39,180 nt of DNA from NCBI GenBank assembly GCA_017436305.1, contig JAFSDJ010000089.1, positions 1 to 39,180 of the forward strand. The letters run 5' to 3'. Below the pieces are notes generated by a model. The model saw nothing but the letters and a program-made list of their open reading frames with translations. It searched no databases and was not told where the DNA came from. Position numbers and translations under genes: made by a program. Positions 2,962-30,003 of this stretch are shown here, piece by piece (position 1 is the first letter of the stretch; every line of letters begins with the position of its first letter). Source of the DNA: Lachnospiraceae bacterium (GTDB lineage Bacteria > Bacillota > Clostridia > Lachnospirales > Lachnospiraceae).

Positions 2962-5142
2962 ATGGCAGAAGCATATAAATATCCCAAAATAGAAGTGAGG
3001 GTAATAAAAAAAGACGGCAGTTTACAGGAATATTGTCCTGAAAAAATTGTTGCTGCCATTTCAAAATCCGCTGAACGAGTAGCGCTTGAACTTTCGGATG
3101 CGGAAAAAAAGGCTGTTGTGGCAGCGGTAAGTGATAAAATTGACGAATACGGTAAAGACACTGTGCCAGTGGAACGTATACACCGTATTGTTGAATTATC
3201 ACTGTTAAAAATCCGGGAGGAAGTAGGGCTTTCCTACATGAGTTTCCGGAATTATAAACAGGGGTTCTCCGGAATGATGGAGAAGATCTATAAGGAAGAC
3301 CAGCGGATACGTTTCCTTGGTGACAGGGAAAATTCCAACAAAGACAGTTGTCTTGTGGCGACAAAACAGGCTTTGTTACGCTCGGCTACTTCCAAGATTC
3401 TATATGAACTGTTTCAGCTTTCTTTAGAAGAAAGTAAAGCTATAAAAGATGGTTATATTTATGGACATGACGAGGACAGCCGTCGTGATACCATGAACTG
3501 TTGCCTGTTTGATATGCAGACAGTGCTAACAGGCGGATTTAGCATGGCAAACCTTCATTACAACGAACCAAAATCTCTGGATGTTGCGTTTGATGTAATC
3601 GGGGATATAGTCCTGTCGGCAGCAGCACAGCAGTACGGTGGATTTACCGTAGGCGAGGTGGATAAACTGCTGGAACCGTATGCAGAGAAGACCTATAAAG
3701 AAAGCTATGAGAGATACATTTCAATTGGTCTTAGTGAAGCTGTGGCTGAAGAAGAAGCCCTAAAGGATGTCCGGAAAGAATTCACACAGGGATTTCAGGG
3801 CTGGGAAATGAAGTTTAACACCGTTGGCAGCAGCCGGGGTGATTATCCGTTCATTACCATAAGCTTTGGACTGGCAATGAGCCGTTTTGGCAAAATGGCA
3901 AGTATTACCTGTTTAAATGTAAGAAAAAAAGGACAGGGAGAAAAAGGTAAAGAAAAGCCGGTACTGTTCCCTAAACTTGTTTTTCTGTATGACAGAAAAA
4001 TACATGGTGAAGGGTGTGTCGGCCATGATGTATTTATGGCGGGTATAGCATGCTCGCAAAAGTCCATGTATCCGGACTGGTTAAGTCTCTCAGGAGAAGG
4101 GTATGTTCCGGATATTTACAAACAGTATGGGAAAGTAATATCTCCTATGGGTTGCAGAGCATTTTTATCACCCTGGTATGCAAAAGGCGGTATGTATCCG
4201 GCGGATGAAACAGATGAACCTGTGTTTACAGGACGATTCAATATAGGTGTGGTATCGCTGCACCTTCCGCTTATATATTATACAGCAAAGCAGGAAGGAA
4301 AAGATTTCTTTGAGTTGCTGGATTATTACCTGGAGTTAATCCGGGGAATCCACAAAAAGACATATAAATATCTGGGAAATCTTCCGGCAAGCTGTAATCC
4401 CCTTGCTTATTGCGAAGGCGGGTTTTTAGGCGGATGTTTACGACCGGATGAAAAGATTGCCCCGCTATTAAAGTCGGCAACAGCATCATTTGGAATCACA
4501 GCTTTAAACGAGCTTCAGATGGTGTATAACGGAAAGAGTCTTGTAGAAGATGGTGCCTTTGCATTGGAAGTAATGGAATATATTAATGCAAAGGTAACAG
4601 AATTCAAAAAGGAGGACGGCAACCTTTATGCCATTTATGGAACTCCGGCGGAAAACCTCTGTGGAAAGCAGGTGGAACAGTTCAGGGAAAAATATGGCAT
4701 TATAGAGGGTGTATCAGACAGGGAATATGTATCAAACAGCTTCCACTGTCACGTAACGGAAGACATTACTCCGACACAGAAGCAGGATTTGGAATACCGT
4801 TTCTGGAATTATTTTAACGGTGGAAAAATCCAGTATGTGAAATATCCGATAGCATACAATCTGGATGCTATTAAATGTCTGGTTGAAAGAGCTATGGACA
4901 TGGGCTTTTACGAAGGGGTAAACCTGTCATTATCTTTCTGCAACAACTGTGGAAATGATGATGTAGAAATGAAAGACGTCTGTACATGTTGTGGAAGCAG
5001 GAGCCTGACAAAGATAGACCGTATGAACGGTTATTTGTCATATTCTCAGGTATCAGAGCAGCACTCAGACGGAAAGGTATTTACATACTCACGCTTAAGC
5101 CGTCACAAAATGGCGGAAATAGCGGAAAGAAAGAGTATGTAA
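2962..5142 (+). CDS. nrdD: anaerobic (class III) ribonucleoside-triphosphate reductase
   Basis: Glycyl-radical enzyme that makes dNTPs from NTPs anaerobically. The ATG at 2962 has GGAGAG upstream; a GTG at 2953 overlaps that site and is less likely. Seen in order: an N-terminal ATP-cone (about residues 5-95, with VIKKDGSLQEY), the catalytic barrel including SCNPLAYCEGGFLGGC with likely active-site cysteines, then a C-terminal zinc site of two Cys pairs (CNNCG and CTCCG), then RMNGYLSY, whose Gly is the probable radical site. The 726-residue length is usual. It forms an operon with nrdG. Carriage beside dnaX suggests the element supplies its own DNA precursors, as large phages and plasmids often do. 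No truncation is seen. Confidence 0.95.
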   Translation: MAEAYKYPKIEVRVIKKDGSLQEYCPEKIVAAISKSAERVALELSDAEKKAVVAAVSDKIDEYGKDTVPVERIHRIVELSLLKIREEVGLSYMSFRNYKQGFSGMMEKIYKEDQRIRFLGDRENSNKDSCLVATKQALLRSATSKILYELFQLSLEESKAIKDGYIYGHDEDSRRDTMNCCLFDMQTVLTGGFSMANLHYNEPKSLDVAFDVIGDIVLSAAAQQYGGFTVGEVDKLLEPYAEKTYKESYERYISIGLSEAVAEEEALKDVRKEFTQGFQGWEMKFNTVGSSRGDYPFITISFGLAMSRFGKMASITCLNVRKKGQGEKGKEKPVLFPKLVFLYDRKIHGEGCVGHDVFMAGIACSQKSMYPDWLSLSGEGYVPDIYKQYGKVISPMGCRAFLSPWYAKGGMYPADETDEPVFTGRFNIGVVSLHLPLIYYTAKQEGKDFFELLDYYLELIRGIHKKTYKYLGNLPASCNPLAYCEGGFLGGCLRPDEKIAPLLKSATASFGITALNELQMVYNGKSLVEDGAFALEVMEYINAKVTEFKKEDGNLYAIYGTPAENLCGKQVEQFREKYGIIEGVSDREYVSNSFHCHVTEDITPTQKQDLEYRFWNYFNGGKIQYVKYPIAYNLDAIKCLVERAMDMGFYEGVNLSLSFCNNCGNDDVEMKDVCTCCGSRSLTKIDRMNGYLSYSQVSEQHSDGKVFTYSRLSRHKMAEIAERKSM

Positions 5143-5187
5143 AATAAAAAGTTTGAAAAAGGGAAAGAATATGTAGAAATACAATAC

Positions 5188-5340
5188 ATGGAGAATAATT
5201 TGTACTGTGTACGGTATTTTCCTTATTTTAAACAAATGAAAGATGGAAAATTTAAAAAACTGAATTGTAAAATAATTCAGTACATTAAAAAAGTAGATTA
5301 TGAAAGAGGAAAATGTACAATGTGTTATCGTTCTGCTTAA
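5188..5340 (+). CDS. small hypothetical protein (50 aa)
   Basis: Short frame after nrdD. The same frame runs open from the nrdD stop, so the true start could be upstream of the ATG at 5188 if a non-ATG codon is used; no clear ribosome site is seen before the ATG. The product is basic and aromatic, with Lys-rich middle and CxxC near the end (GKCTMCYRSA), reminiscent of a small nucleic-acid-binding or beta-barrel protein. Its stop codon lies in the loop of the long terminator hairpin that follows. No family recognised. Confidence 0.45.
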   Translation: MENNLYCVRYFPYFKQMKDGKFKKLNCKIIQYIKKVDYERGKCTMCYRSA

Positions 5341-5383
5341 TTAGCAGAAGGTATATCACATGCGTACAATTCCTCTTTTTTTT
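5303..5383 (+). terminator. long interrupted terminator hairpin
   Basis: Four paired blocks fold one long stem: 5303-5311 with 5370-5378, 5314-5318 with 5364-5368, 5320-5324 with 5357-5361, and 5331-5336 with 5344-5349, capped by a 7-base loop. A T tract follows. It overlaps the 3' end of the small frame at 5188-5340 and sits about 20 bases before the next ribosome site. Confidence 0.75.
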
Positions 5384-5410
5384 ATGCTTATTGAAAAAGG
5401 AGGAAAGGCT

Positions 5411-5767
5411 ATGCTTTATAGTGAATTTTTAAAAGGAACAGGACAACCTGAAAACATATGGACCCACAAGGAATATGAACGGATTAACCGTATTTATAAC
5501 GATAATGAAAATATGGAAAAAGAAGAGGCGTATGCACTCTTTCAAAACCCGGTCAGACGTGAGGATATACTTGAGATAGAAATGGAAATCATAAAAAGAG
5601 AAAAATTTCAGCTCGAACTAACCATAAAAGGATTAAGGGAAAAGGTCTCTAATCTGGAAGGGCAAGTGAAAGCGGAAAAAGAATGGTCAAATACCTATTT
5701 AAAGGTAATGAAAAATGACCTTAATAACATGATTTACACATTAGAAGATAAGCTTGGCATTATTTAA
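5411..5767 (+). CDS. coiled-coil hypothetical protein (118 aa)
   Basis: The ATG at 5411 has an AAAGGAGG site eight bases upstream; an earlier in-frame ATG (5360) lies inside the terminator and is rejected. The N-terminal 45 residues are mixed. Residues of about 50-110 (EIEMEIIKREKFQLELTIKG onward, ending in a Leu/Asn heptad pattern) predict a continuous coiled coil. No transmembrane segment or motif is seen. It heads a run of three small genes leading to the PAPS-reductase-like gene. Function unknown. Confidence 0.75.
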   Translation: MLYSEFLKGTGQPENIWTHKEYERINRIYNDNENMEKEEAYALFQNPVRREDILEIEMEIIKREKFQLELTIKGLREKVSNLEGQVKAEKEWSNTYLKVMKNDLNNMIYTLEDKLGII

Positions 5768-5816
5768 AAATGTGTAAAAAGTTATAGTGAATTTTGGTTA
5801 TGAAAGGAAGGAATTT

Positions 5817-6020
5817 ATGAATATCATAGAGGAAAAAGATATAAGAGTATGTCCAAATTGCAGAAAGGATGTAGAACGGAGTAATATGCTTTATACAAGA
5901 GACTGCCATGGAATTATCTCAAGACTTGTCTGCCTGGACTGTTATCCGGTGTTGATGAAGCGGGGATATGATGGAGTTTATTACACAGAGGCAGATGAAT
6001 GTATAGAAGCGGATTATTAA
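5817..6020 (+). CDS. small zinc-ribbon-like protein (67 aa)
   Basis: The ATG at 5817 follows GGAAGG at good spacing. Two Cys pairs, CPNC near residue 12 and CLDC near residue 41, with a Cys-His between them (RDCHG), suggest a small zinc ribbon. The C-terminus is acidic and rich in Tyr. Small plasmid or phage regulators and replication accessory proteins often have this form, but no family can be named. Second of three small genes between two terminator-like structures. Confidence 0.75.
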   Translation: MNIIEEKDIRVCPNCRKDVERSNMLYTRDCHGIISRLVCLDCYPVLMKRGYDGVYYTEADECIEADY

Positions 6021-6051
6021 TTGTGATAGTACTGTCTTATAGGAGAAATGT

Positions 6052-6240
6052 ATGAACAGAATAGAAGAAATTAACAGAGAAATAAATGAGTGCTATGCAA
6101 TGATAGACCATTTTATTGCTCTAAAAAAAGTAAATCAGAAGCTGCCTCATATCAGAGAAAAATATGAGGAAGAAATAAAGTACTGGAGAAAGGCGCTGCA
6201 GATGTTAAAATTTCAAAAAAGGGGACTTAAAAACTCATAA
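6052..6240 (+). CDS. small helical hypothetical protein (62 aa)
   Basis: The ATG is preceded by TAGGAGAAATGT, a good ribosome site. The product is entirely charged and helical (a probable two-helix coiled coil, MNRIEEINREINECYAMIDH and a second Lys/Glu-rich helix). No motif seen. It is the last gene before the unusual leader of the PAPS-reductase-like gene. Confidence 0.7.
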   Translation: MNRIEEINREINECYAMIDHFIALKKVNQKLPHIREKYEEEIKYWRKALQMLKFQKRGLKNS

Positions 6241-6348
6241 ATCTGTTATGATAGAGAGTTGCGATTAACAATATGCCAAAGCACTTGGGGAAACAGAGGG
6301 TTTCTAAGCGTAGTCGAGAGGCAGGAGTTACGGGTTTTGTGACTCTTT
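6241..6348 (+). promoter_or_regulatory. unusual leader of the PAPS-reductase-like gene
   Basis: A 108-base stretch without a ribosome site for the next gene. It can form small hairpins (CCAA-5-TTGG at 6277-6289, GAAAC-5-GTTTC near 6290-6304), and its ends, GAGAGTTGC and GTGACTC, can pair across the whole leader. A 47-codon ATG frame crosses it and runs out of frame into the next gene. It may be a structured leader or a scar. Part of it (6313-6332) resembles bases 9655-9675 beyond the invertible cassette. Confidence 0.3.
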
Positions 6349-7125
6349 TTGAAATATATTTGCAGCTGGTCCGGTGGAAAGGATTCCACAGCAAGCGTCA
6401 TTCTCGCACATGAAAATAATGAACCTTTGGATATTATATTGCATTCAGAGGTAATGTTTAACAAAAAGGAGGAAATAAGCGGAGAAAGTCCTGCTCATGT
6501 TAATTTTATACGGAATGTATGTAAACCTCTGTTTGAATCATGGGGGTATCAAGTTATAATTCTTCATTCAGATATGGATTATCTGGATTATTTTAATACT
6601 GTGATAGAATATCCGAGAAAGCATATGGAGCATAGAGGAATCAAAAGAGGGTTTCCCTGTTCCGGCAAATGTGGTATTAAAAGGGATTGTAAACTGAAAC
6701 CTATAGAAGAATTTTACAAGTCTATAAAGGAGCCTTACGTACAATATGTGGGAATTTGCAAGGATGAACCGCAAAGACTGGATTCTTTAAAAAAAGATAA
6801 CAGTAAAATTTCTTTATTGGAAAAGTATGGATATACAGAACAAATGGCAAAAAGACTTTGTGAAGAATATGGTCTTTTAAGTCCTATTTACAGGTTTTCC
6901 CGAAGAGGTGGTTGTTGGTTCTGTCCATATGCAAAGAGAGAAGAACATAGAGAAATCAGGGAAAAGATACCGTCTGCGTGGAAAGTGTTCATAAACCTGG
7001 AAAATACTCCGGGTATAGCCAATAATAAGTGGAATGTGTATGGAGAAACATTACATGATAGAGATGAATATTTAAAGAGATACAAGCAGTTGAGTATTTT
7101 TGATTTGTTGGAAAAGGAAGAGTAA
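6349..7125 (+). CDS. PAPS-reductase/ATP-pyrophosphatase family protein
   Basis: Member of the adenine-nucleotide alpha-hydrolase (PP-loop) superfamily, in the branch common in phages and plasmids and related to PAPS reductase and DndC. The PP-loop SGGKDST lies at residues 8-14, which fixes the start very close to position 6349: TTG is the only start-like codon between an in-frame TGA at 6340 and the motif. There is no ribosome site before it. Cys clusters CSGKCGIKRDC and GGCWFCPY may hold an iron-sulphur cluster or zinc. The C-terminus ends in QLSIFDLLEKEE, whose QLSIF resembles a sliding-clamp-binding motif. Role unknown: sulphur transfer, nucleotide or DNA modification are options. A terminator follows. 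Either translation is unusual or the 5' end has been rearranged. Confidence 0.8.
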   Translation: MKYICSWSGGKDSTASVILAHENNEPLDIILHSEVMFNKKEEISGESPAHVNFIRNVCKPLFESWGYQVIILHSDMDYLDYFNTVIEYPRKHMEHRGIKRGFPCSGKCGIKRDCKLKPIEEFYKSIKEPYVQYVGICKDEPQRLDSLKKDNSKISLLEKYGYTEQMAKRLCEEYGLLSPIYRFSRRGGCWFCPYAKREEHREIREKIPSAWKVFINLENTPGIANNKWNVYGETLHDRDEYLKRYKQLSIFDLLEKEE

Positions 7126-7130
7126 TGAAC

Positions 7131-7187
7131 AGAGAGAGAGAATATCATAGATATTTTTGATATTCCTCTCTCTCTTTATTTTTTTTG
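7131..7187 (+). terminator. intrinsic terminator
   Basis: Inverted repeat of an AG-run plus AATATCA with TGATATT plus a TC-run, followed by a T-rich tract. It insulates the upstream operon from the invertible cassette promoter. Confidence 0.8.
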
Positions 7188-7236
7188 CAGTAAATTTTAA
7201 AACAATTCAATTAAAATTAAAATCATAGTAGCCAAA

Positions 7237-7265
7237 TTGAAACAAAGGTGGTATATTGATATAAA
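7237..7265 (+). promoter_or_regulatory. sigma-A promoter outside the invertible cassette
   Basis: TTGAAA (7237-7242), 17-base spacer, TATAAA (7260-7265). Transcription would start near 7272, inside the left inverted repeat, and run into whichever cassette gene is next to it. It lies outside the invertible segment, so it stays fixed while the genes turn. Confidence 0.7.
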
Positions 7266-7270
7266 TAAGA

Positions 7271-7298
7271 GATAATCAAATGTTATCCGTCAGATATT
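7271..7298 (+). repeat. left inverted repeat of invertible cassette
   Basis: 28-base arm beginning GATAATCAAATGTTATCCGT; partner at 9607-9634 on the opposite strand with two mismatches, both in the inner six bases. Confidence 0.85.
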
Positions 7299-7332
7299 GA
7301 ACTGATGAAAAACAAATTCTATGAGGTTTTTT

Positions 7333-8664
7333 ATGAATGAAATATTTTACCCTAAACAATTATTAACTTTAAAGAACAAACGTATTGAGAATCAATGTTT
7401 TTTTGTTATGCCTTTTGCTCAAGAATATGAAAATTTATATGATACATTATCATTATATCTTGAAAATCAAAATTATAAACCTGTTCGTGTGGATAAAAAT
7501 TCAGAAGCAAGTGTACCAATCATTACATTAATATTAAATGGGATTGCTACTTCGCAATATATTATTGTAGATATTTCAGAATCAAACGCAAATGTATTTT
7601 ACGAATTGGGAATAGCTCAAACATTAAAGGAACCGAACAATATTTTTATTATCAAGGAAAAGGCAGCTAAGACTCCTTTTGATATTCAGCATTTACAATA
7701 TATTTCATATGATAAGAATAATTTAAAAAAGTTAGCTTTGGAGCTTGTAGAGAAACTTGAGTCTTGCCAATATAAAAATGATTTTTGGAATGCACTCAAT
7801 TCGCAAAATTTTATAGATGAAAAACAACTTGATATGTTTGTCGAATATTGTCTTAATGTGTTTTCGGAAGATACTATCAAAAATTTTACTTATATTCTGC
7901 TCAACCACGAAGACACATTTCCGCTTAGTGATTCTACCAAAAGAGCAATTTTGATTCTTGATGAAGTTTTTAGAAAAGAAACAAGAAAATCAGAATCTGA
8001 AAAATATATACCAATGTTGCAATTGCTTTTAAATAAGTTAGTAATGTATTGTAGCAATGACGTTTCTGTGATTGCGTATGTACAAGATTTTTTAAATCTG
8101 ACTAATTATGGCGAGTTACGATTAGAGCAGCTGGTATCATTTCAAACAGATATGGTGATTGAGCTGGCACTTAACTCAAAATTAGAACATATAGCTTTAA
8201 GATGGATAATTGAATATTTTCAAAAATCGAAATCTACAAAAGTTGACTTAAACAGATATAAATTGGAATCATTCCTTTTAAGAAGTAATACTCAATTGGT
8301 AAATGAATATATTATTAATGCAATTGTATCAGAAAATCATTATATAAGAGAACATATGGCAGATATAGCAGGTGAGAAAAATTTGGTTTATGCCGAAGAA
8401 AATTTAATTATACAATTAAAAAGAGAAGATAATATATATACTACAGCAAGTATAATGGAGGCTTTAGGAAAAATTAAAAGTAATAAAGGTTCTCGCATTA
8501 TATATGAATGGGTGGAAAAAAATGCCGAGTTTCTTATCCAAAAGAGCAATTATTTTGTATTAAAACATGCGCGGAATGCTTTAAAAAATATAGATGAGAC
8601 TGATTTATTAATTTTATTTGATAAAAAATACTTAGAAATATTAAAAAATAATAATGCACTATAG
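7333..8664 (+). CDS. TIR/nucleoside-deoxyribosyltransferase-like protein with helical repeat C-terminus
   Basis: N-terminal Rossmann-like domain (about residues 20-145) of the TIR-like or nucleoside 2-deoxyribosyltransferase-like type. Features: CFFVMPF at 22-28, YIIVDIS at 76-82 and NANVFYELGIA with conserved Glu at 91, the probable catalytic residue. Such domains cleave NAD or nucleotides in bacterial defence systems; that role is inferred here. Residues 150-440 are helical and look like HEAT/ARM-type repeats, a likely sensor or scaffold. ATG 7333 has GAGG six bases upstream; an ATG at 7321 overlaps that site. 443 residues. In the orientation given here it is next to the promoter at 7237-7265 and should be the expressed gene of the switch. 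It overlaps the convergent glycosyltransferase by six bases. Confidence 0.7.
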   Translation: MNEIFYPKQLLTLKNKRIENQCFFVMPFAQEYENLYDTLSLYLENQNYKPVRVDKNSEASVPIITLILNGIATSQYIIVDISESNANVFYELGIAQTLKEPNNIFIIKEKAAKTPFDIQHLQYISYDKNNLKKLALELVEKLESCQYKNDFWNALNSQNFIDEKQLDMFVEYCLNVFSEDTIKNFTYILLNHEDTFPLSDSTKRAILILDEVFRKETRKSESEKYIPMLQLLLNKLVMYCSNDVSVIAYVQDFLNLTNYGELRLEQLVSFQTDMVIELALNSKLEHIALRWIIEYFQKSKSTKVDLNRYKLESFLLRSNTQLVNEYIINAIVSENHYIREHMADIAGEKNLVYAEENLIIQLKREDNIYTTASIMEALGKIKSNKGSRIIYEWVEKNAEFLIQKSNYFVLKHARNALKNIDETDLLILFDKKYLEILKNNNAL

Positions 8665-9585
8665 AACCAGTGATGAGCAATATTTATAATATTCGTTAAT
8701 ATCTATAGTAATTGTAAATTCAGACAAAAGTAGGGCTTTGTATTTATTTATCTCGTCTACATTAGATACACAGTCCTCTAAGCGTTCTAATAATGAATTT
8801 ATACATTTTTGCAAATATTTGTAAAAATGTTCTTTTCCACGAACTGTATCTTGATTTATTGCAGTATATAAAAATTTGAATGATTTAAACAAATCATATA
8901 TGTGCTTCTCAGAAAAATTATGGGTAAGTGACTTTGGGTGTTGGAAATAATACAAATTGCACCCTGTTACAATGCCTATTTTATTTGCATGATATAATGC
9001 TAAAAAAGAAAAGGCATCGTCCTCATAAAAAGTATCTATAAATTTAAGATGGTTTTTAATAAGAAAGGAAGTTTTAAATAATTTACATCCTAATAGTGGA
9101 CTCAAAAAATATTCGTTTGTAAATGAATGCGTCAATAAAGAAAGAGCCATATTACTAGTGAGAACATTATCATAGGCATATTGGTACCTTTCACTTATTT
9201 TTAAATCTTGTAATGCTGTTTTAATTTCCCATACAACTATATCTATATGATTGTTTGAAGTGAATTTTTTTATTGCGCGTGCTAAACAGTTTAAATCCAA
9301 CCAATCATCACTATCTAAAAACATTACATATTGCGAATTTATACTATTTAAACCGACATTTCTACAATAACTTGCACCACGTCTAGAACTATTTTTAATG
9401 TACTTTATGTTATTATAATTCTCTATATATGAGGCCACTATATTGCCAGAATTATCGTCTGAATTATCATCAATAATAACTAATTCAATGTTATTAAAAG
9501 ATTGATTGATAATCGATTCGATACATCTAGCAATATATTTCTCTGAATTATACATTGGAATAATTACAGATATTAGCGCGGGCAT
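8659..9585 (-). CDS. GT2-family glycosyltransferase
   Basis: GT-A fold glycosyltransferase. Seen: ISVIIPMYNSEKYI at the N-terminus, IIDDNSDDNS (residues 37-46) for nucleotide-sugar binding, the RGASYCRNVGL motif near 70, and the metal-binding DSDD at 91-94. 308 residues, no transmembrane segment, probably cytoplasmic or membrane-associated, adding sugar to a surface polymer or protein. The ATG at 9585 has a GGAGG nine bases upstream; a TTG at 9600 contains that site and is rejected. Very AT-rich. In the present orientation no good promoter faces it, so it is predicted silent until the cassette inverts. Its start, ribosome site and stop all lie inside the inverted repeats. The acceptor is unknown. 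Confidence 0.85.
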   Translation of the reverse strand: MPALISVIIPMYNSEKYIARCIESIINQSFNNIELVIIDDNSDDNSGNIVASYIENYNNIKYIKNSSRRGASYCRNVGLNSINSQYVMFLDSDDWLDLNCLARAIKKFTSNNHIDIVVWEIKTALQDLKISERYQYAYDNVLTSNMALSLLTHSFTNEYFLSPLLGCKLFKTSFLIKNHLKFIDTFYEDDAFSFLALYHANKIGIVTGCNLYYFQHPKSLTHNFSEKHIYDLFKSFKFLYTAINQDTVRGKEHFYKYLQKCINSLLERLEDCVSNVDEINKYKALLLSEFTITIDINEYYKYCSSLVL

Positions 9586-9606
9586 AACACATACCTCCAA
9601 ATTTAA

Positions 9607-9634
9607 GATATTTGACGGATAACATTTGATTATC
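9607..9634 (-). repeat. right inverted repeat of invertible cassette
   Basis: Reverse-complement partner of 7271-7298 (26/28). It lies between the glycosyltransferase start and the recombinase 3' end. Confidence 0.85.
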
Positions 9635-9676
9635 CTGCAATTTGAATAATAAAAGTTGAGAAGGTAGGAGTTACGT

Positions 9677-10597
9677 CTATATACTAAAATTCTTCCTCGG
9701 ATGCTTGTTTCTTAATATATCTTTCTGCTTTGAAGTTGTAACATGCGTATAAATTTCAGTAATGTTAATGGAACTGTGGCCGAGCATTTCCTGTATATAT
9801 CGTATATCTACATCAGATTCCAAAAGGCTTGTGGCAAATGTGTGCCGGAACATGTGTGGTGTTATATGTAATTCAATACCGGCTAATGCGGCGTATTTTT
9901 TTATCATCCGTCTCACAGACTGGTCTGATATAGGGTTTCCGGATTGTTTTGTAAAAAAATATCCTTTTTCTTTAATCCAATCCTGAAAGCAGGTTTGATA
10001 TTTTATGAGAATATTGGCCACGTTGTCATTGCCAATTTGTATTTTTCTTTCTTTTGCACCTTTTCCGTAGATAAGAATAGTATTATCCGGCAGGTTGACA
10101 TCGGAAGCTTTCAGAGAGCATAATTCAGAAATTCGGATTCCTGTGGAGAATAATAATTCGATAACGGCTATGTCCTGTAAAGTTTTTTTCTTCTGATAAG
10201 CAGTAGTAGCACTGGCATGCTGCGTATAGATAGTTTTAAGAAAACACTCTACGGTGTTTAAAGGGATCGTTTTAGGCAGAATAACGGGTGCCCGGAATTT
10301 AATCTGTATTTTATTAAATGGGTTTATTAAAATTATATCTTTATATTCCAGATAACGATAGAAAGCTTTTACAGAAGCAATTTTTCGCTTTGCTGTTTTA
10401 GGTTTATAATTCTGATGCAAAAAAGCAATAAACAGCTCTAAATCATTTGTGGTAATATCAGAAATATTTTGAGTTGGAACTTTTTTGGAAAATTGTGACA
10501 GGTCAATTTTGTAGGCTTTAATGGTTTTGTCATCCAGACATTTTTGAGATTTGCAAAATGAGAGATAGCTTTCAATGTTCATCTTTAGTGTATTCAT
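9677..10597 (-). CDS. XerC/D-type tyrosine recombinase, probable invertase
   Basis: Complete tyrosine recombinase of 306 residues. It has an N-terminal SAM-like core-binding domain (residues 1-95) and a catalytic domain. All active-site residues are present: R155 in STGIRISEL, K179 in the beta-hairpin GKGAKER, H248 and R251 in HMFRH, H274 in LGHSS, and nucleophile Y283 in IYTH. The start has AAAGGAG six bases upstream. Its 3' end is 43 bases from the right inverted repeat of the cassette, so it most likely inverts that cassette. It could instead be a resolvase or integrase of the replicon. It is divergent from the helicase operon, and a 327-base gap separates them. Confidence 0.9.
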   Translation of the reverse strand: MNTLKMNIESYLSFCKSQKCLDDKTIKAYKIDLSQFSKKVPTQNISDITTNDLELFIAFLHQNYKPKTAKRKIASVKAFYRYLEYKDIILINPFNKIQIKFRAPVILPKTIPLNTVECFLKTIYTQHASATTAYQKKKTLQDIAVIELLFSTGIRISELCSLKASDVNLPDNTILIYGKGAKERKIQIGNDNVANILIKYQTCFQDWIKEKGYFFTKQSGNPISDQSVRRMIKKYAALAGIELHITPHMFRHTFATSLLESDVDIRYIQEMLGHSSINITEIYTHVTTSKQKDILRNKHPRKNFSI

Positions 10598-10698
10598 AAA
10601 AAACTCCTTTTTAAAGAATATTTTACCAAGAAGATACAGGGAAAGGGGAAAGAAGTTGTAAAATTGGTATTTTTAAACTGCCAAATCGGGATTTACTA

Positions 10699-10727
10699 TT
10701 GCAAAAAGAGACTATTTTCTTTATAAT
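10699..10727 (+). promoter_or_regulatory. sigma-A promoter of the helicase operon
   Basis: TTGCAA (10699-10704), 17-base spacer, TATAAT (10722-10727). The ssb promoter at 30581-30609 has the same boxes and spacing. Confidence 0.85.
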
Positions 10728-10760
10728 ATGAGTATCATTTTTTATTTATTTACTATTTAG

Positions 10761-10819
10761 TAATACACCTATTTAGGTGTATGTGAAAGAAAAAGTCTCA
10801 CGCATGTGTTGAGCGTAAA
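10761..10819 (+). ncRNA. conserved 59-nt leader element, copy 1
   Basis: 57 of 59 bases match 30643-30701 upstream of ssb; the two differences are purine changes. It begins with hairpin ACACCT-ATTT-AGGTGT, followed by GTGA...TCAC and ACGC...GCGT pairings, and is followed 33 bases later by a terminator hairpin just before the helicase ribosome site. The layout (promoter, structured element, terminator, ribosome site) is that of an attenuating leader RNA. A protein-binding DNA site is the alternative. Confidence 0.65.
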
Positions 10820-10852
10820 AGAAAGTGGAATACTGAATATATTGATTTATTT

Positions 10853-10883
10853 AGCACGTATCGCGAAGATAGGTGCTTTTTTT
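10853..10883 (+). terminator. attenuator hairpin before the helicase gene
   Basis: A 10-bp stem with one mismatch (10853-10862 with about 10868-10877), then a seven-base T tract. It lies about 30 bases upstream of the ribosome site. Equivalent to 30729-30759 before ssb. Confidence 0.75.
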
Positions 10884-10924
10884 ATGTTCAGGACAGAATT
10901 TTTATTAAAAAGGAGGAAAACGTA

Positions 10925-13423
10925 ATGAAAATGCAGGTAGCAGATTATTACAGACAAAGTTCCTGCGAGAAACAGGCAGAATTTTTGAAAGCAACAGAAG
11001 TACCAGAACTGATTGTGGCGCAGAAAAAACTGTTGTCACTGGTTTGTAAGGAACTGGTAAAGGGGAGCTGTAGAAAGGAACTGCTGGAACTAACAAAGGA
11101 GCAGGTCAGAACCTATCAGGAAGAATGGTTTGACTATTCTTTTCTGAAGGAGAAAACGGAAGTCAGGGATTATCTGGCAATTGTCCGTTTTTTAGACTGG
11201 TACGAAAATCTGGGTGCAAAGGCACTTCAGGCGGATGTGGAATGTGTCCTTCCGTTAAACAAAATAACCCTGTATGAGAAAGCCTCTCTAATTATCCGGA
11301 TGCCGTCTGGTGATTACAGAGCTTTTTTATTGTCTTTTTCAAAGCCAAAAAAGACTAAGGGTGGAAGGAGTATTCATACGAATATTTCCACAGACCTGGG
11401 AGTAATGACGGTAAAGGCAGGGCTTGAAGAAAAATACCCAGACATTAAAGTCTATTCTTTGTCCATGATAGCGGGGGATGATACCCTGGAAATGCTGTCA
11501 AAACAGTTTTTGGTGGATAAGAAGGGTGGAAACGGATATTTTATCAGTTTTGAAAATTATCTGAAAAAAGAACAGTTTCAAATGGCAGAATTTCTAAAAA
11601 AGGCAGAGGAAGCAGTCGCTACACCAATGCAAAGCAATTGTTATTCCTGTTCTTTTAGAAACCAGTGCCATATCGTACCGCTGGAAAGGAGTGAAATAGC
11701 AGTCCAGTCAGACAGTTACCGGATGCCGGAATTTACGGAAAAGCAGAAAACAGTGGTGGACCATAAAGACGGGGCATTACTTGTGTGCGCCGGACCTGGA
11801 AGTGGAAAAACCGCCACTTTAATTGGCCGTATTAAAGCACTGATTGAAAAAGGAGTGGATCCGGCTTTTATCCTGGTGGTAACTTTTACCAAGGAGGCAG
11901 CCAAAGAGCTTAAAAACAGGTGCCTGTCTTTTCTAAAGGACTATGAACTGCCTTATATTTCCACACTTCATGCTCTTTGCTATGATATTTTAAAGAGCAA
12001 TAAGGAGCTGTTTGGAAAGGAGCTAAAAGTGCTGGGGGCTGAAGAGGCGCATGGTATTCTTGATGTGCTTACCCAGGCGCATGGGCAGTTAGCCGGCTTT
12101 TCCTATGGAAAGAAAACTGGTAAGAACGGACTGTTGGAAACAATTGAGAGGAGGATGAAAAGCTATAAGAACGATGATGAATCTTTCTTTTTGCATTATC
12201 CTGAGATTGACAGAAAGCAGTTTTCAGATTTCGTCAGGGAATATGATGAAATCGTTTCGGAAAGAGGTTTAATCACCTTTGATGAGCAGATTAGTCTGGC
12301 AATTACCCTTTTTAAGGAACATCCGGAAGTTTTAAAAACTTACCAACAGTTATTTCAGTATATTATGGTAGATGAATACCAGGATGTGGATGAAACACAG
12401 GCAGAGCTTGTATATCTGCTTGGCGCACATGGAAACGTGTGTGTGGTAGGAGATGATGACCAGTCTATATACGGTTTCCGCGGAGGTTCGCCTAAATATA
12501 TGACAGAATTCAGAAGTCATTTTAGTGCCAGAACAGTTGTTTTAAATGATAACTTCCGCTCAAGGGAAACAATCGTAAATGCCTCAAATAAGTTAATTGA
12601 GAAAAATTCCGGACGGATTCAGAAAGACCTGGTTGCAAGCCGTTCCGGCGGACAACCGGTAACAATTGTGCCAAAACAGTCTGCACAGGTGGTAGAAAAT
12701 ATCATTCATAAACTCCATAAAAATGGTACCGCCTATAAGGATATTGCTGTTTTGAATTTTTCAAATGCACCGTTAGAAAAGCTGGAGAGTGATTTGCGTG
12801 TGCCATGCAGATTAAGCAAGGCAACCCTTGTGGAAGACGGATTTTTCCGGATTGTTTTTGACAGTATAAGAGCATGGAAGGAAGGTTTCACCACAGAGGT
12901 TTTAGCAGATTACGAAAAGGCAGCAGGGTTATACGGCCTGATGGATGAATTTTTACAAAGTGGGCCGGAAATAGAAAAATTGCGGTACCTGAATGAAGCT
13001 GTTTCCTACCTGCGGGCTAAACCGGAAACGGCAGCGGGAAATTTTATTAAGTATCTGTCATTTCTTTATGACATGGATAATACCGTTTCTTCTGATGCAT
13101 TGAATCAGATGATACAGGATAAGCATATCCGGACATTGGATACTCTGTACCAGACGATGAAAGGCATGATTGAGTATGGTGATGAAACCCGTATACAATA
13201 TGGGGAAAAAGACGAAGTCTGTCTTATTACGTCCCATGATTCAAAAGGAAAGGAATTTCCGGTTGTTATTTTATATGATGGTGACAGGTATGGTGATGAT
13301 GAAGAAAGTCGGCGCCTTTTATATGTAGCACTGACAAGAGCAAAGGATCAGTTGTTTGTCCTTTGTGATAAGCCTAATCCGGTTCTTTCGGAGTTAGGTG
13401 TGGTTAATAATAATTATTTATAA
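10925..13423 (+). CDS. UvrD/Rep-type superfamily 1 helicase with N-terminal Cys-cluster domain
   Basis: 832 residues. The helicase core starts near residue 270 with Walker A GPGSGKT (290-296), motif Ia TFTKEAAKEL, Walker B DEYQD (483-487), GDDDQSIYGFRGG (motif III region), and motif VI RRLLYVALTRAKDQL near the C-terminus. It is a DNA-unwinding ATPase for repair, recombination or replication. The 270-residue N-terminus ends in CYSCSFRNQC (C239, C242, C248), the triad seen at the end of RecB/Cas4-like iron-sulphur nuclease domains. I cannot find the nuclease catalytic Asp-Glu-Lys set, so this domain may be degenerate. The 2B domain is short. AAAGGAGG precedes the ATG. The gene is controlled by the shared leader element and followed by a terminator. 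Confidence 0.9.
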   Translation: MKMQVADYYRQSSCEKQAEFLKATEVPELIVAQKKLLSLVCKELVKGSCRKELLELTKEQVRTYQEEWFDYSFLKEKTEVRDYLAIVRFLDWYENLGAKALQADVECVLPLNKITLYEKASLIIRMPSGDYRAFLLSFSKPKKTKGGRSIHTNISTDLGVMTVKAGLEEKYPDIKVYSLSMIAGDDTLEMLSKQFLVDKKGGNGYFISFENYLKKEQFQMAEFLKKAEEAVATPMQSNCYSCSFRNQCHIVPLERSEIAVQSDSYRMPEFTEKQKTVVDHKDGALLVCAGPGSGKTATLIGRIKALIEKGVDPAFILVVTFTKEAAKELKNRCLSFLKDYELPYISTLHALCYDILKSNKELFGKELKVLGAEEAHGILDVLTQAHGQLAGFSYGKKTGKNGLLETIERRMKSYKNDDESFFLHYPEIDRKQFSDFVREYDEIVSERGLITFDEQISLAITLFKEHPEVLKTYQQLFQYIMVDEYQDVDETQAELVYLLGAHGNVCVVGDDDQSIYGFRGGSPKYMTEFRSHFSARTVVLNDNFRSRETIVNASNKLIEKNSGRIQKDLVASRSGGQPVTIVPKQSAQVVENIIHKLHKNGTAYKDIAVLNFSNAPLEKLESDLRVPCRLSKATLVEDGFFRIVFDSIRAWKEGFTTEVLADYEKAAGLYGLMDEFLQSGPEIEKLRYLNEAVSYLRAKPETAAGNFIKYLSFLYDMDNTVSSDALNQMIQDKHIRTLDTLYQTMKGMIEYGDETRIQYGEKDEVCLITSHDSKGKEFPVVILYDGDRYGDDEESRRLLYVALTRAKDQLFVLCDKPNPVLSELGVVNNNYL

Positions 13424-13432
13424 GAGTAGAAT

Positions 13433-13453
13433 CAGGCTTACAGCCTGTTTTTT
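13433..13453 (+). terminator. intrinsic terminator after the helicase
   Basis: 6-bp perfect stem (13433-13438 with 13442-13447), 3-base loop, six Ts, then an AGGAGG site of the next gene about 20 bases on. Confidence 0.7.
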
Positions 13454-13486
13454 ATTATCAATTTATATGACAGGAGGAAAAAAGAT

Positions 13487-14383
13487 ATGTTGAATTATCA
13501 AGAATTTAAAGAAGAAGTAGTAGGTAAAATCGGGAATTATTTACCCCAGGAGTGTAAAGATGCACAGGTTATTTTAAAGCCCGTACAGAAGATTAATCTT
13601 GAAATGGATGGGCTTATGCTTAAATGCAAAGAAAGTAAATATGCCCCGACTGTTTATCTGGAAAATCTGTATAAACATTATCTGGATAACGGCGGAAATC
13701 TGGAAAATGTTTTAAAACAACTGGTGGATACCATGTGTTCAGAAGGTGTAAATGAGCAGGAGATGCAGTCTCTGTTTGAAAACCTGGAAGAAAAAATATT
13801 CTGGCAGGTGATAAATACAGAAGCTAACAAAAAGCTGCTTTCTGGCATACCTCACAGGACATTTGAGGATTTATCCATTATCTATCGTGTATTAGTAAAG
13901 AGCGATAGTTCCGGGATAGGAAGTTTCATTGTTAATAATGATGCAGCAGGAAATTTTGGATTAAGTGAAGAAAAGCTGTATCAGCTGGCAAAGAAAAATG
14001 CTAAGAGACTGATGAAACCAACTGTAAGAATTTTAAGTCAGGTATTGGCAGAATGCGGGTATTTGAGTCAAGAAGAGACAGACGAAGCATTCATGGCGGA
14101 AGATATGTATGTAATAAGCAATTCTGAGAATATAAATGGAGCTGCCTGTTTGCTGGATGAAATGGTGTTCCAGGAATTAGCTAAAAAAACAGATTCTGAT
14201 TTATATATACTACCGTCATCCATCCATGAACTGATAGCAGTGTCTGTGGGGGATAAAAACCCAGAGGTTCTTGCAGAGATGGTAAGAGCAATAAACAGCT
14301 CTGTGGTATCACCCATGGAAATACTATCTGACAGTGTGTATTATTACTGTCGCAGTACACGAAGCATAAAACGGATTGCATAA
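13487..14383 (+). CDS. DUF5688 family protein
   Basis: 298-residue protein of a Clostridia-specific family of unknown function that I recognise as DUF5688. The N-terminal pattern is NYQEFKEEVVGKIGNYLP, then VYLENLYKHYLDNGG and a C-terminal SSIHELIAVSV region ending in a short Tyr/Ser-rich stretch. The family is frequent on conjugative elements and phages of gut Lachnospiraceae. No enzymatic motif or membrane segment is seen. The C-terminal half (LPSSIHELIAVSVGDKNPEV) resembles regions of proteins that handle peptide or nucleotide signals, but that is not evidence of function. AGGAGG precedes the ATG. It is followed 15 bases later by the delta-like gene, so the two are co-transcribed. Confidence 0.75.
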   Translation: MLNYQEFKEEVVGKIGNYLPQECKDAQVILKPVQKINLEMDGLMLKCKESKYAPTVYLENLYKHYLDNGGNLENVLKQLVDTMCSEGVNEQEMQSLFENLEEKIFWQVINTEANKKLLSGIPHRTFEDLSIIYRVLVKSDSSGIGSFIVNNDAAGNFGLSEEKLYQLAKKNAKRLMKPTVRILSQVLAECGYLSQEETDEAFMAEDMYVISNSENINGAACLLDEMVFQELAKKTDSDLYILPSSIHELIAVSVGDKNPEVLAEMVRAINSSVVSPMEILSDSVYYYCRSTRSIKRIA

Positions 14384-28450: not shown

Positions 28451-28741
28451 ATGAGTGATTTTTTTATATTTACAGACAAGGTACATTATTATAATATAAA
28501 TACAGAAAATTTCCCATTCTTTTCCCAAGTGCATCCGGGGGAAAGACTGGACTTTTTTACAAGCAAAGCGGCAGCAGACAATGCTTTATCAGTCTGTGTG
28601 GGAAAATTAAGAAATTGTCCGGAAGAGGATACAAAAGAACATCTACATAAACTGCAATCTCTTTTGCCAAATTTAAATGAACAGACATTATTTGAAAAAG
28701 AATGTTCAAAAAATTTATATGTTCCTTTTCTTAGGGGGTGA
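28451..28741 (+). CDS. hypothetical protein (96 aa)
   Basis: GAAGGTGAT precedes the ATG. Acidic, with aromatic N-terminus (MSDFFIFTDKVHYYNINTEN) and a helical middle (KAAADNALSVCVGKLRNCPE). Its last codons carry the ribosome site (GGGGG) of the next gene, so the two are coupled. Not recognised. Confidence 0.6.
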   Translation: MSDFFIFTDKVHYYNINTENFPFFSQVHPGERLDFFTSKAAADNALSVCVGKLRNCPEEDTKEHLHKLQSLLPNLNEQTLFEKECSKNLYVPFLRG

Positions 28742-28746
28742 AAGCA

Positions 28747-30003
28747 GTGAAATACAGAAATAATTTTTCTTTACTATTATTTATCTGCACTATACTCTGT
28801 GCTTTTGTTTCGTTTCCGGCTGCCTGCCTGTGTTTGTTTTCCAGCATTTTTTGCAGCCCGTTTTTTCAGAAATTATTCAAACGGACTCTAAAAAAATGGG
28901 TTACACATGCCCTGCCAGCAGTTTTTTTCATACTTGCAGCATTTTGTATTATATTTCAGGAACAGCAGACTAAAGAATCCCAAGATGTACCGGATATCTT
29001 CACAGAAAATATCCAATCCGAGACTGTCATTTCCGAAAGCGCAGAAAACGTAGAAACGCAGTCAAAGCAAGGGTTTTACATTGCTTATTTTGACGTGGGA
29101 CAGGGTGATTCAGCGCTGATTGTATGTGATGGCCATGCTATGTTAGTGGATGCCGGTTTAAATGATCAGGGCTCCCTATTAAAGAATTATTTAAAGCAGT
29201 GCGGTATAAAGCAGTTGGATTACCTGGTTCTGACCCATTTTGATGCTGACCATATCGGCGCAGCGGATGTTATTATTGATAATTATTCCATTGATACTTT
29301 AATTATGCCGGATGCTGAAAAAGATACAGAAACTTACCGTGACGTAATAGCTGCCATGAAATATGCAGCATTGCAACCCACATACCCTGCAGTTGGTGAT
29401 AAATATACATTGGGAAGTGCTTCCTTTCGCATTGTTGCCCCTAATTCATATGACTATGGTGATAATGCTAACAATTATTCCGTCGGATTCATTATTACAT
29501 ATGGAAATACCAGATTTTTCTTTGCCGGTGATGCCGAAAAAGAAGCAGAAGATGACATGATGGCAAATGGACTTCCTCTTAATGCAGATGTATATAAAGT
29601 TTCCCATCATGGAAGCTCTACCTGTTCCGGCAGCAGCTTTCTGGATGCTATAAATCCAAGTTATGCTGTTATCAGCTGTGGCAAAAATAATTCTTACGGA
29701 CATCCTCATGAAGAAGTAATAAAAGAATTGGAATCCAGAGATATTACCATTTTCCGTACAGACAAACAAGGAACCGTTTATGCTTCTTCTGATGGAGAAA
29801 ATATTACTTTTTCTACTGACTCCATAGCAGGAGCAGATTATACCGGAACGTATTCGCTTAATCCTGAAGCCATAAAAAATTATACATTTCCATCCCTTCC
29901 TACAAAAAAAGTCAAAGATTATATGGAAACGATGGCTTCAGAAGATACCTATAACAAAATTTCAGACATTATAAGTGGCTGTATGAACAGTCTCTTGGAA
30001 TGA
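28747..30003 (+). CDS. ComEC/Rec2-type metallo-beta-lactamase protein with N-terminal membrane anchor
   Basis: GTG 28747 with GGGGG eight bases upstream (GTG 28738 overlaps that site). Two N-terminal hydrophobic helices (about 7-37 and 53-72) are followed by a linker and a metallo-beta-lactamase domain from about residue 113. It shows FDVGQGDSALI, LVLTHFDADHIGA (metal ligands HxDxDH), FFAGDAE and SHHGS, which is the ComEC C-terminal domain order. The channel (competence) part of ComEC is missing, so it is a stand-alone hydrolase, perhaps a membrane-bound nuclease or phosphodiesterase facing outside. 418 residues. Similar proteins occur on mobile elements of gut Clostridia. Substrate unknown. 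Confidence 0.85.
   Translation: MKYRNNFSLLLFICTILCAFVSFPAACLCLFSSIFCSPFFQKLFKRTLKKWVTHALPAVFFILAAFCIIFQEQQTKESQDVPDIFTENIQSETVISESAENVETQSKQGFYIAYFDVGQGDSALIVCDGHAMLVDAGLNDQGSLLKNYLKQCGIKQLDYLVLTHFDADHIGAADVIIDNYSIDTLIMPDAEKDTETYRDVIAAMKYAALQPTYPAVGDKYTLGSASFRIVAPNSYDYGDNANNYSVGFIITYGNTRFFFAGDAEKEAEDDMMANGLPLNADVYKVSHHGSSTCSGSSFLDAINPSYAVISCGKNNSYGHPHEEVIKELESRDITIFRTDKQGTVYASSDGENITFSTDSIAGADYTGTYSLNPEAIKNYTFPSLPTKKVKDYMETMASEDTYNKISDIISGCMNSLLE

Follow-up and report, generated by a model that had tools for sequence, protein, structure and literature searches.

The window analysed here is the whole of a 39,180-bp contig (JAFSDJ010000089.1) from a Lachnospiraceae bacterium whose source genome comprises 2.6 Mb in 107 contigs and is 84% complete. 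This study concerns a locus at which two convergent genes, encoding an effector-type protein and a glycosyltransferase, lie between inverted repeats next to a tyrosine recombinase gene. The original prediction had taken the locus for a DNA switch by which the recombinase chooses between the two genes. Its features are as follows.

7237 to 7265, + strand: promoter-like sequence TTGAAA-17-TATAAA, outside the left site and aimed into the segment (read from the sequence)
7271 to 7297, + strand: left recombination site, with the core GATAA-TCAAATG-TTATC at 7271-7287
7298 to 9607, no strand: predicted invertible segment of ca. 2.3 kb, with two convergent genes
7333 to 8664, + strand: gene for a 443-aa effector-type protein, on the promoter side and predicted to be ON in the assembly
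8659 to 9585, − strand: gene for a 308-aa GT2 family glycosyltransferase, predicted to be OFF in the assembled orientation
9608 to 9634, − strand: right recombination site, inverted, with the core at 9618-9634 and an N7 identical to that on the left
9677 to 10597, − strand: gene for a 306-aa XerC/D-like tyrosine recombinase, the predicted invertase, beside the right repeat

The inverted repeat (7271-7297 and 9608-9634) spans 27 nt with 26 matched, the initial 22 being identical; the 28 bp first given for it are one too many, as base 28 (7298/9607) is mismatched. Among the repeats listed for 5000-14000, it was the longest near-perfect inverted repeat, a 30-nt alternative being just 80% matched. 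The two genes converge as predicted, their stop codons sharing 6 bp in CTATAG. Also as predicted, no terminator was seen between them, a scan of 7050-10950 having turned up no terminator-like site (1.1 in shuffles). Whole genes lie inside the flipping segment and the promoter-like site lies outside it, an anatomy that rules out a classic inverton with the promoter inside the flipping segment.

The recombinase gene is a complete frame of the PF00589 tyrosine type, in agreement with the original prediction. The motif residues R155, K179 or K182, H248, R251, H274, and Y283 are present and conserved, and we take them to be the catalytic residues. The protein scored highest against the XerC and XerD models, yet under their equivalog cut-offs, and XerD was its closest solved relative by sequence. 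The assignment of the glycosyltransferase to GT2 was clear of its threshold (PF00535, 116.1 bits vs a cut-off of 23.3, E 2.1e-33).

Judged from profile comparisons, the 443-aa protein consists of an N-terminal TIR/deoxyribosyltransferase-like domain and C-terminal HEAT repeats, the C-terminal part matching HEAT-repeat proteins, chiefly designed ones. The whole protein scored under the TIR cut-offs (PF10137, 22.8 vs 24.7; PF13676, 19.6 vs 28). The N-terminal domain alone scored just above the cut-off of its best-fitting model, the CAP12/Pycsar TIR model PF10137 (25.9 vs 24.7), and phmmer found no solved structure for it. A 13-row domain profile was made from four relatives and nine distant single-domain matches from 392 order genomes. 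Among solved structures, this profile matched the Rcl/DNPH1 2'-deoxynucleoside 5'-phosphate N-hydrolase first (E 3.5e-6), followed by the weaker matches CAP12 (0.019) and nucleoside 2-deoxyribosyltransferases (0.032). The deoxyribosyltransferase family was matched by 9 of the 13 rows, the window's own row not being among them, and E91 was invariant in all 13. The earlier label 'TIR-like' is thus apt in that the domain fits the CAP12/Pycsar TIR best, but across its wider family deoxyribosyltransferases and Rcl-type hydrolases fit too. We read the effector as a putative fusion of an N-glycosidase of the TIR/deoxyribosyltransferase type with a HEAT sensor, in which E91 may be catalytic, judging from known enzymology.

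Recombination sites and convergent segments at related loci

Loci with related recombinases were collected in two sets. For the first, 225 recombinase relatives were confirmed in genome contigs by one scan, and the best 80 (64-73% identity) were kept. For the second, a search of 397 family genomes found the recombinase at E <= 1e-90 in 42, counting that of the window; 20 regions were taken, one of which duplicated a first-set locus. The DNA identity of the remaining 19 to their best first-set match was at most 78%. Comparison loci are given L-numbers and genomes G-numbers, G000 being the window genome. Many of the nearest recombinase relatives are labelled Lachnospiraceae, and many come, according to their record titles, from animal guts. 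L031 and L037 are labelled Bacteroides and Alistipes yet hold recombinases of this Lachnospiraceae-rich family; mislabelling or misbinning is possible.

A motif, GATAA-N7-TTATC, was visible in the DNA 3' of the related recombinases. Within the window it occurs at two places only, in opposite orientation and with an identical N7 (TCAAATG). Genome-wide there are 12 occurrences of the pattern vs 5 of the reversed control, and an N7 is shared only by the window pair. The 80 first-set loci contained 91 sites, compared with a mean of 3.0 in shuffles. Each locus was assigned to one class: an exact inverted pair (23), a near pair (1), at least one site near the recombinase (24), sites elsewhere (9), or none (23). 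Of the sites expected to accompany the recombinase, at least one was thus present in 57 of the 80 loci and none in the other 23, and exact inverted pairs numbered 0.0 per 80 loci in shuffles. The second set yielded exact pairs in 11 of 19 loci, L188 additionally having a single-mismatch pair. Cultured relatives with exact pairs include Eubacterium plexicaudatum ASF492 (L104) and Roseburia faecis M72 (L076). The spacer is identical inside each pair and differs between loci, with certain spacers recurring. A chance repeat was ruled out by the site pairing in the window and by the site counts vs shuffles in the 80 loci. Tandem sites with differing spacers, 33-50 bp apart, were seen in L028, L060, L061, L071, and L103; they form nested pairs in L028 and, under a relaxed motif, in L071.

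Site-less recombinases as a separate clade were considered and rejected: they are intermixed with the others on the recombinase tree and at most weakly clustered, the site/no-site label requiring 17 changes compared with 20.2 in shuffles, of which 28 of 500 gave a value this low. Twenty loci, namely L031, L035, L086, and 17 of the 23 site-less ones, were also searched for other inverted repeats. A 33-bp inverted repeat surrounds the recombinase gene itself in L057; eight of the remaining loci had only chance-like repeats of 15-17 bp, and 11 had none of at least 15 bp. In the window's own genus, three of the five other genomes have the recombinase at 54-56% identity, and of these only G003 has a site in the DNA examined, near a contig end.

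The segments between paired sites share an architecture. Exactly two convergent gene sets were enclosed in 22 of the 23 first-set pairs and in all 11 second-set pairs (33/34). For rough comparison, convergence was seen in 128 of the 757 neighbouring gene pairs counted outside the segments, and in 39 of these the gap measured -60 to 50 bp. Facing stops were -42 to +48 bp apart in 21 of 24 convergent cases, with the window and L088 counted in, and -33 to +12 bp apart in 9 of the 11 second-set loci. Facing stops that nearly touch leave little space for a terminator between the arms. Promoter-like matches were compared in the 17 loci (the window and 16 of the 23) whose segment closely follows the recombinase. 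The better match lay on the flank away from the recombinase in 13 of them, and matches equalled by at most 5% of shuffles were found on seven far flanks and one near flank. A hairpin terminator, called by our own rule, separates the recombinase from the near site in 16 of 41 loci, the window not being among these. Where the segment follows the recombinase, the common plan is recombinase, sometimes a terminator, site, set A, reversed set B, inverted site, and often an inward promoter-like match.

Orientation was compared at the DNA level in 23 locus pairs (15 + 8), picked mainly because their genes or flanks were alike, after both recombinases of a pair had been placed on the same strand. Both orientations were found among homologous loci, five pairs carrying their cassettes on opposite strands relative to the recombinase: L058/L098 (81.6% identity over 2078 bp), L032/L102 (65.7% over 1730 bp), L034/L188 (73.7% over 2216 bp), L028/L201 (69-77% over almost 6 kb), and L037/L088. 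The last pair has the window's gene content; the effector adjoins the recombinase in L037 and the glycosyltransferase adjoins it in L088. L055 and L100 have just a 138-bp opposite-strand stretch in common. These opposite orientations are between related loci of different species, not within the window strain.

For the comparison of gene content, 38 switches were annotated, namely the window, 34 exact pairs, L188, L088 (cut by a contig end), and L127; the near pair of L071 was not annotated. In 26 of them the arm on the promoter side could be judged, and by our own tally it was effector-type in 14 and enzyme-type in 12. The tally left out seven switches with the segment before the recombinase 5' end (L067, L076, L085, L104, L192, L193, and L207) as well as L032, L102, L100, L127, and L204.

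Contig ends were frequent at the sites. Thirty of the 91 sites (29 without L076, whose end is the fetch limit) lay within 150 bp of a locus end vs 0 of 13 other-spacer control patterns. Of the 80 loci, 19 had a contig end within 200 bp past the recombinase 3' end and 2 had one before the 5' end; in 22 further non-duplicate second-search loci (limit 210 bp) the numbers were 6 and 0. Such breaks would be expected if a sample holds both orientations, but they are indirect evidence, since a long repeat can also interrupt an assembly.

Based on these results, we propose the following mechanism. The tyrosine recombinase would recombine the two inverted GATAA-N7-TTATC sites, each pair being able to recombine with itself by virtue of its identical 7-bp spacer, and thereby flip the 2.3-kb segment. 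The fixed promoter outside the left site would transcribe the TIR/deoxyribosyltransferase-like HEAT protein in the assembled state or, after inversion, the glycosyltransferase. Read-through beyond the overlapping stops would yield RNA antisense to the silent gene and might silence it. Inversion as such is well supported by the comparison of relatives; its occurrence in the window strain, the use of the promoter, and antisense silencing are presumed by extension. With both orientations among relatives and site pairs next to the recombinases, we consider it likely that the locus is a gene-choice inversion switch, in which the recombinase flips the segment and a fixed promoter drives one arm, and that it is a member of a family of exchangeable two-arm cassettes. 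The window looks like one case of a large family of such cassette switches. A fixed locus with relic sites, at which the recombinase no longer inverts, would agree with the one repeat mismatch outside the core and with the single assembled orientation, but core and spacer are perfectly kept, the recombinase is intact, and relatives occur in opposite orientations; we regard this explanation as very unlikely.

Gene content and apparent exchange of the cassettes

Full-length relatives of the effector were found in three other genomes (L037, L088, and L127), and in each the gene converging on it encodes a GT2-type enzyme with 28-34% identity to that of the window. L127 is a 3509-bp contig with a site near either end and no recombinase on it. 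Its glycosyltransferase arm adds a CsaB-like polysaccharide pyruvyl transferase (76.1 bits, under the cut-off of 213), which favours a surface-glycan role for this arm. Other matches in the 397 family and 392 order genomes cover mostly the N-terminal part of the effector, and the effector is missing from the other five genomes of the window's genus. Prophage or plasmid cargo was considered and rejected, relatives of the effector being absent or N-terminal-only in viral, plasmid, and phage records: none was found in viral contigs by a search that detects close relatives only, and in plasmids (20 records) and phages (5 records) only the N-terminal domain was matched, over at most 29% of the query among the matches listed.

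By our own classification, an enzyme lies opposite a protein of effector or repeat type in 31 of the 38 switches. Four of the 31 are window-type cassettes. Sixteen carry STAND-like or other P-loop proteins (L028, L045, L048, L054, L055, L070, L076, L078, L096, L100, L189, L193, L197, L201, L206, and L207); the Pfam cut-off was reached only in L045, L048 (SIR2 and NACHT), L076, L096, and L100, the other calls being weaker or derived from a BLAST match to another arm. In four (L104, L190, L192, and L203), one arm is a TPR protein or a large protein without assignment. In seven (L043, L063, L066, L067, L085, L087, and L205), a pentapeptide-repeat arm of ca. 470-530 aa lies opposite pyridoxal phosphate (PLP) or radical SAM/ATP-grasp enzymes. 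The enzyme arms comprise GT2/GT1, D-Ala-ligase-like ATP-grasp, carbamoyltransferase, PLP, and radical SAM/ATP-grasp enzymes. A polyprenyl synthase lies opposite an unassigned protein in L032 and L102. L204 is unassigned, its 412-aa arm resembling the window-type effector over ca. 100 residues. Most switch cassettes thus appear to have a biosynthetic enzyme in one arm and an immune-type or repeat protein in the other.

The original prediction suggested that a population would hold two alternative anti-phage states. In this form of bet-hedging, the effector arm would kill or stall infected cells and the enzyme arm would alter the surface against adsorption. Effector arms that include TIR, SIR2, ThsA, and STAND-like NTPases, and enzyme arms that include GT2/GT1, carbamoyltransferase, and CsaB-like pyruvyl transferase, are consistent with it. 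However, not all enzyme arms are obviously concerned with the surface (PLP enzymes, radical SAM/ATP-grasp, nitroreductase, and polyprenyl synthase), both Thoeris arms described below are intracellular, and most NTPase calls are under the Pfam cut-off or BLAST-based. Bet-hedging of this kind is therefore a tentative possibility which we rate somewhat below even chances, and the catalytic and anti-phage roles of the proteins are to be taken as presumptive.

Thoeris requires its two proteins, ThsA and ThsB, together. In L034, L058, L098, and L188, ThsA and a TIR gene are convergent and occupy opposite arms, so that one promoter cannot drive both simultaneously. ThsA of L058 matched the PADLOC ThsA model (9.7e-99) and a solved ThsA over residues 5-441 of 448, none of the NCBIfam Thoeris models reaching its cut-off; that of L034 matched PADLOC ThsA at 1.1e-59, and those of L098 and L188 were assigned by 89% and 74% identity to L058/L034. 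The TIR partners scored over the Pfam TIR_2 cut-off in L034, L058, and L188, and their PADLOC ThsB match was moderate (5.6e-12 in L034 and 4.7e-4 in L058). Eight family genomes have a ThsA match, and only G154 (L188) has ThsA at such a site within 1.5-kb flanks, which indicates that Thoeris usually lies outside switches.

These four cassettes bring in a further idea, a split chemical immune system. One orientation would express an enzyme that makes a signal or surface (ThsB-like TIR, glycosyltransferase, carbamoyltransferase, and others) and the other a receptor or effector (ThsA, STAND, or the TIR/deoxyribosyltransferase-HEAT protein). A clone would then hold makers and responders, never both at full level in one cell, and the platform would swap paired cassettes between species via shared-spacer sites. 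Splitting makers and responders between cells would resolve the Thoeris oddity; even so, we consider this idea quite unlikely.

Where flanks are nearly identical, cassettes have apparently been lost, acquired, and swapped. L032 and L033 have flanks 94-98% identical, with a cassette in L032 and none in L033. L066 and L102 share a spacer between flanks ca. 90% identical and hold entirely different cassettes. L045 and L055, from one isolate, have recombinase regions 95% identical, with differing spacers and cassettes. L033 is apparently an empty switch, with two sites of differing spacer 34 bp apart. We take whole cassettes to be the units of exchange, perhaps via recombination at paired same-spacer sites. 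The presence or absence of a cassette in L032/L033 and the differing cassettes of L066/L102 would also suit a mainly mobile cassette, in which the recombinase would serve to insert or swap units of two genes at paired sites and orientation would be a by-product without regulatory purpose. Nevertheless, the near-universal convergence with almost touching stops, the trend towards an outer promoter, and the contig breaks at sites fit regulated inversion better, and exchange and inversion are compatible; a mainly mobile cassette is therefore unlikely.

A number of observations weigh against the proposed gene-choice switch. The 23 first-set loci without any site in the DNA examined are scattered over the recombinase tree, and homologous cassettes in the same orientation were found in L197/L206, L043/L205, and L076/L206. 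L100 is the only non-convergent segment; its genes at 3877-9033 have the order + - +, a second glycosyltransferase facing outwards. The window contig was assembled through the switch in a single orientation. Long repeats could partly cause the contig breaks, the exact repeat extending up to 139 bp inward in L028. The promoter predicted just outside the left repeat is present, but the match is weak by itself and near chance, being equalled in 6 of 100 shuffles of its flank. No terminator was found between the recombinase and the right repeat in the window, so that transcription of the recombinase gene might still extend into the glycosyltransferase gene in the 'OFF' state. Finally, the Thoeris cassettes would part two jointly required proteins, which speaks against a strict either/or choice.

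Two genes outside the switch may be mentioned. The gene at 6349-7125 (+), just to the left, resembles PADLOC SspD (E 2.3e-13) and, weakly, PAPS reductases. The protein encoded at 28738-30003 (+) has strong phage-family matches, to phrog_14556 (function unknown, E 9.6e-100) and to a tail protein family (E 1.7e-58). A scan of ten proteins elsewhere in the window gave phage-family matches for two, the nine besides that of 28738-30003 giving at most one weak match.

Comparison with known systems

Phase variation is already known for surface structures and restriction specificity, and the inversion literature, in the excerpts available, covers these as well as capsule promoters and prophage segments. 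No description of a switch pairing immune-type genes with enzymes was found in the literature searched, which consisted of open-access papers only. If the proposed switch is true, a family in gut Clostridia would choose cell by cell between an immune-type and a biosynthetic gene, making immune expression stochastic and heritable. It would also explain assembly breaks at such loci and supply immune-type proteins, as yet uncharacterised, for testing together with their partner enzymes.

Four related switches (L034, L058, L098, and L188) resemble Thoeris in carrying ThsA and a TIR gene. They differ from it in that the two occupy opposite arms, and the window genome (84% complete) had no match to L058 ThsA at E <= 1e-20. 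These cases pose a puzzle, namely a two-protein system with its halves in opposite arms of an either/or switch. The RecV switches of Clostridioides difficile, in which a tyrosine recombinase turns short regulatory segments ON or OFF, are likewise phase variation by a tyrosine recombinase in Clostridia, whereas here the choice would be between two gene sets.

In the Mu G and P1 C segments, a fixed outside promoter faces convergent alternative gene sets in an invertible segment with an adjoining recombinase. The present locus has the same plan, with an outside promoter (here a consensus match only), convergent alternative sets inside, and an adjacent recombinase. The difference is that Mu G and P1 C employ a serine recombinase and alternative tail fibre genes, while here there are a tyrosine recombinase and unrelated gene pairs. 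Both segments are named in the available excerpt of PMC12529663. The same excerpt describes an inversion altering phage sensitivity as the feature of the PinQ P-segment, to which an anti-phage switch would be similar; PinQ, however, is a serine recombinase whose target is a segment of a cryptic prophage (PMC12529663). The invertible capsule promoters of Bacteroides, as far as the excerpt of PMC12118408 describes them, share with the present switch a tyrosine recombinase, inverted repeats that are palindromic in part, gut bacteria as hosts, and a connection (here a predicted one) with surface glycans and phage. There, a promoter region of ca. 180-350 bp flips (PMC12118408), whereas here whole genes would flip beside a fixed promoter-like site.

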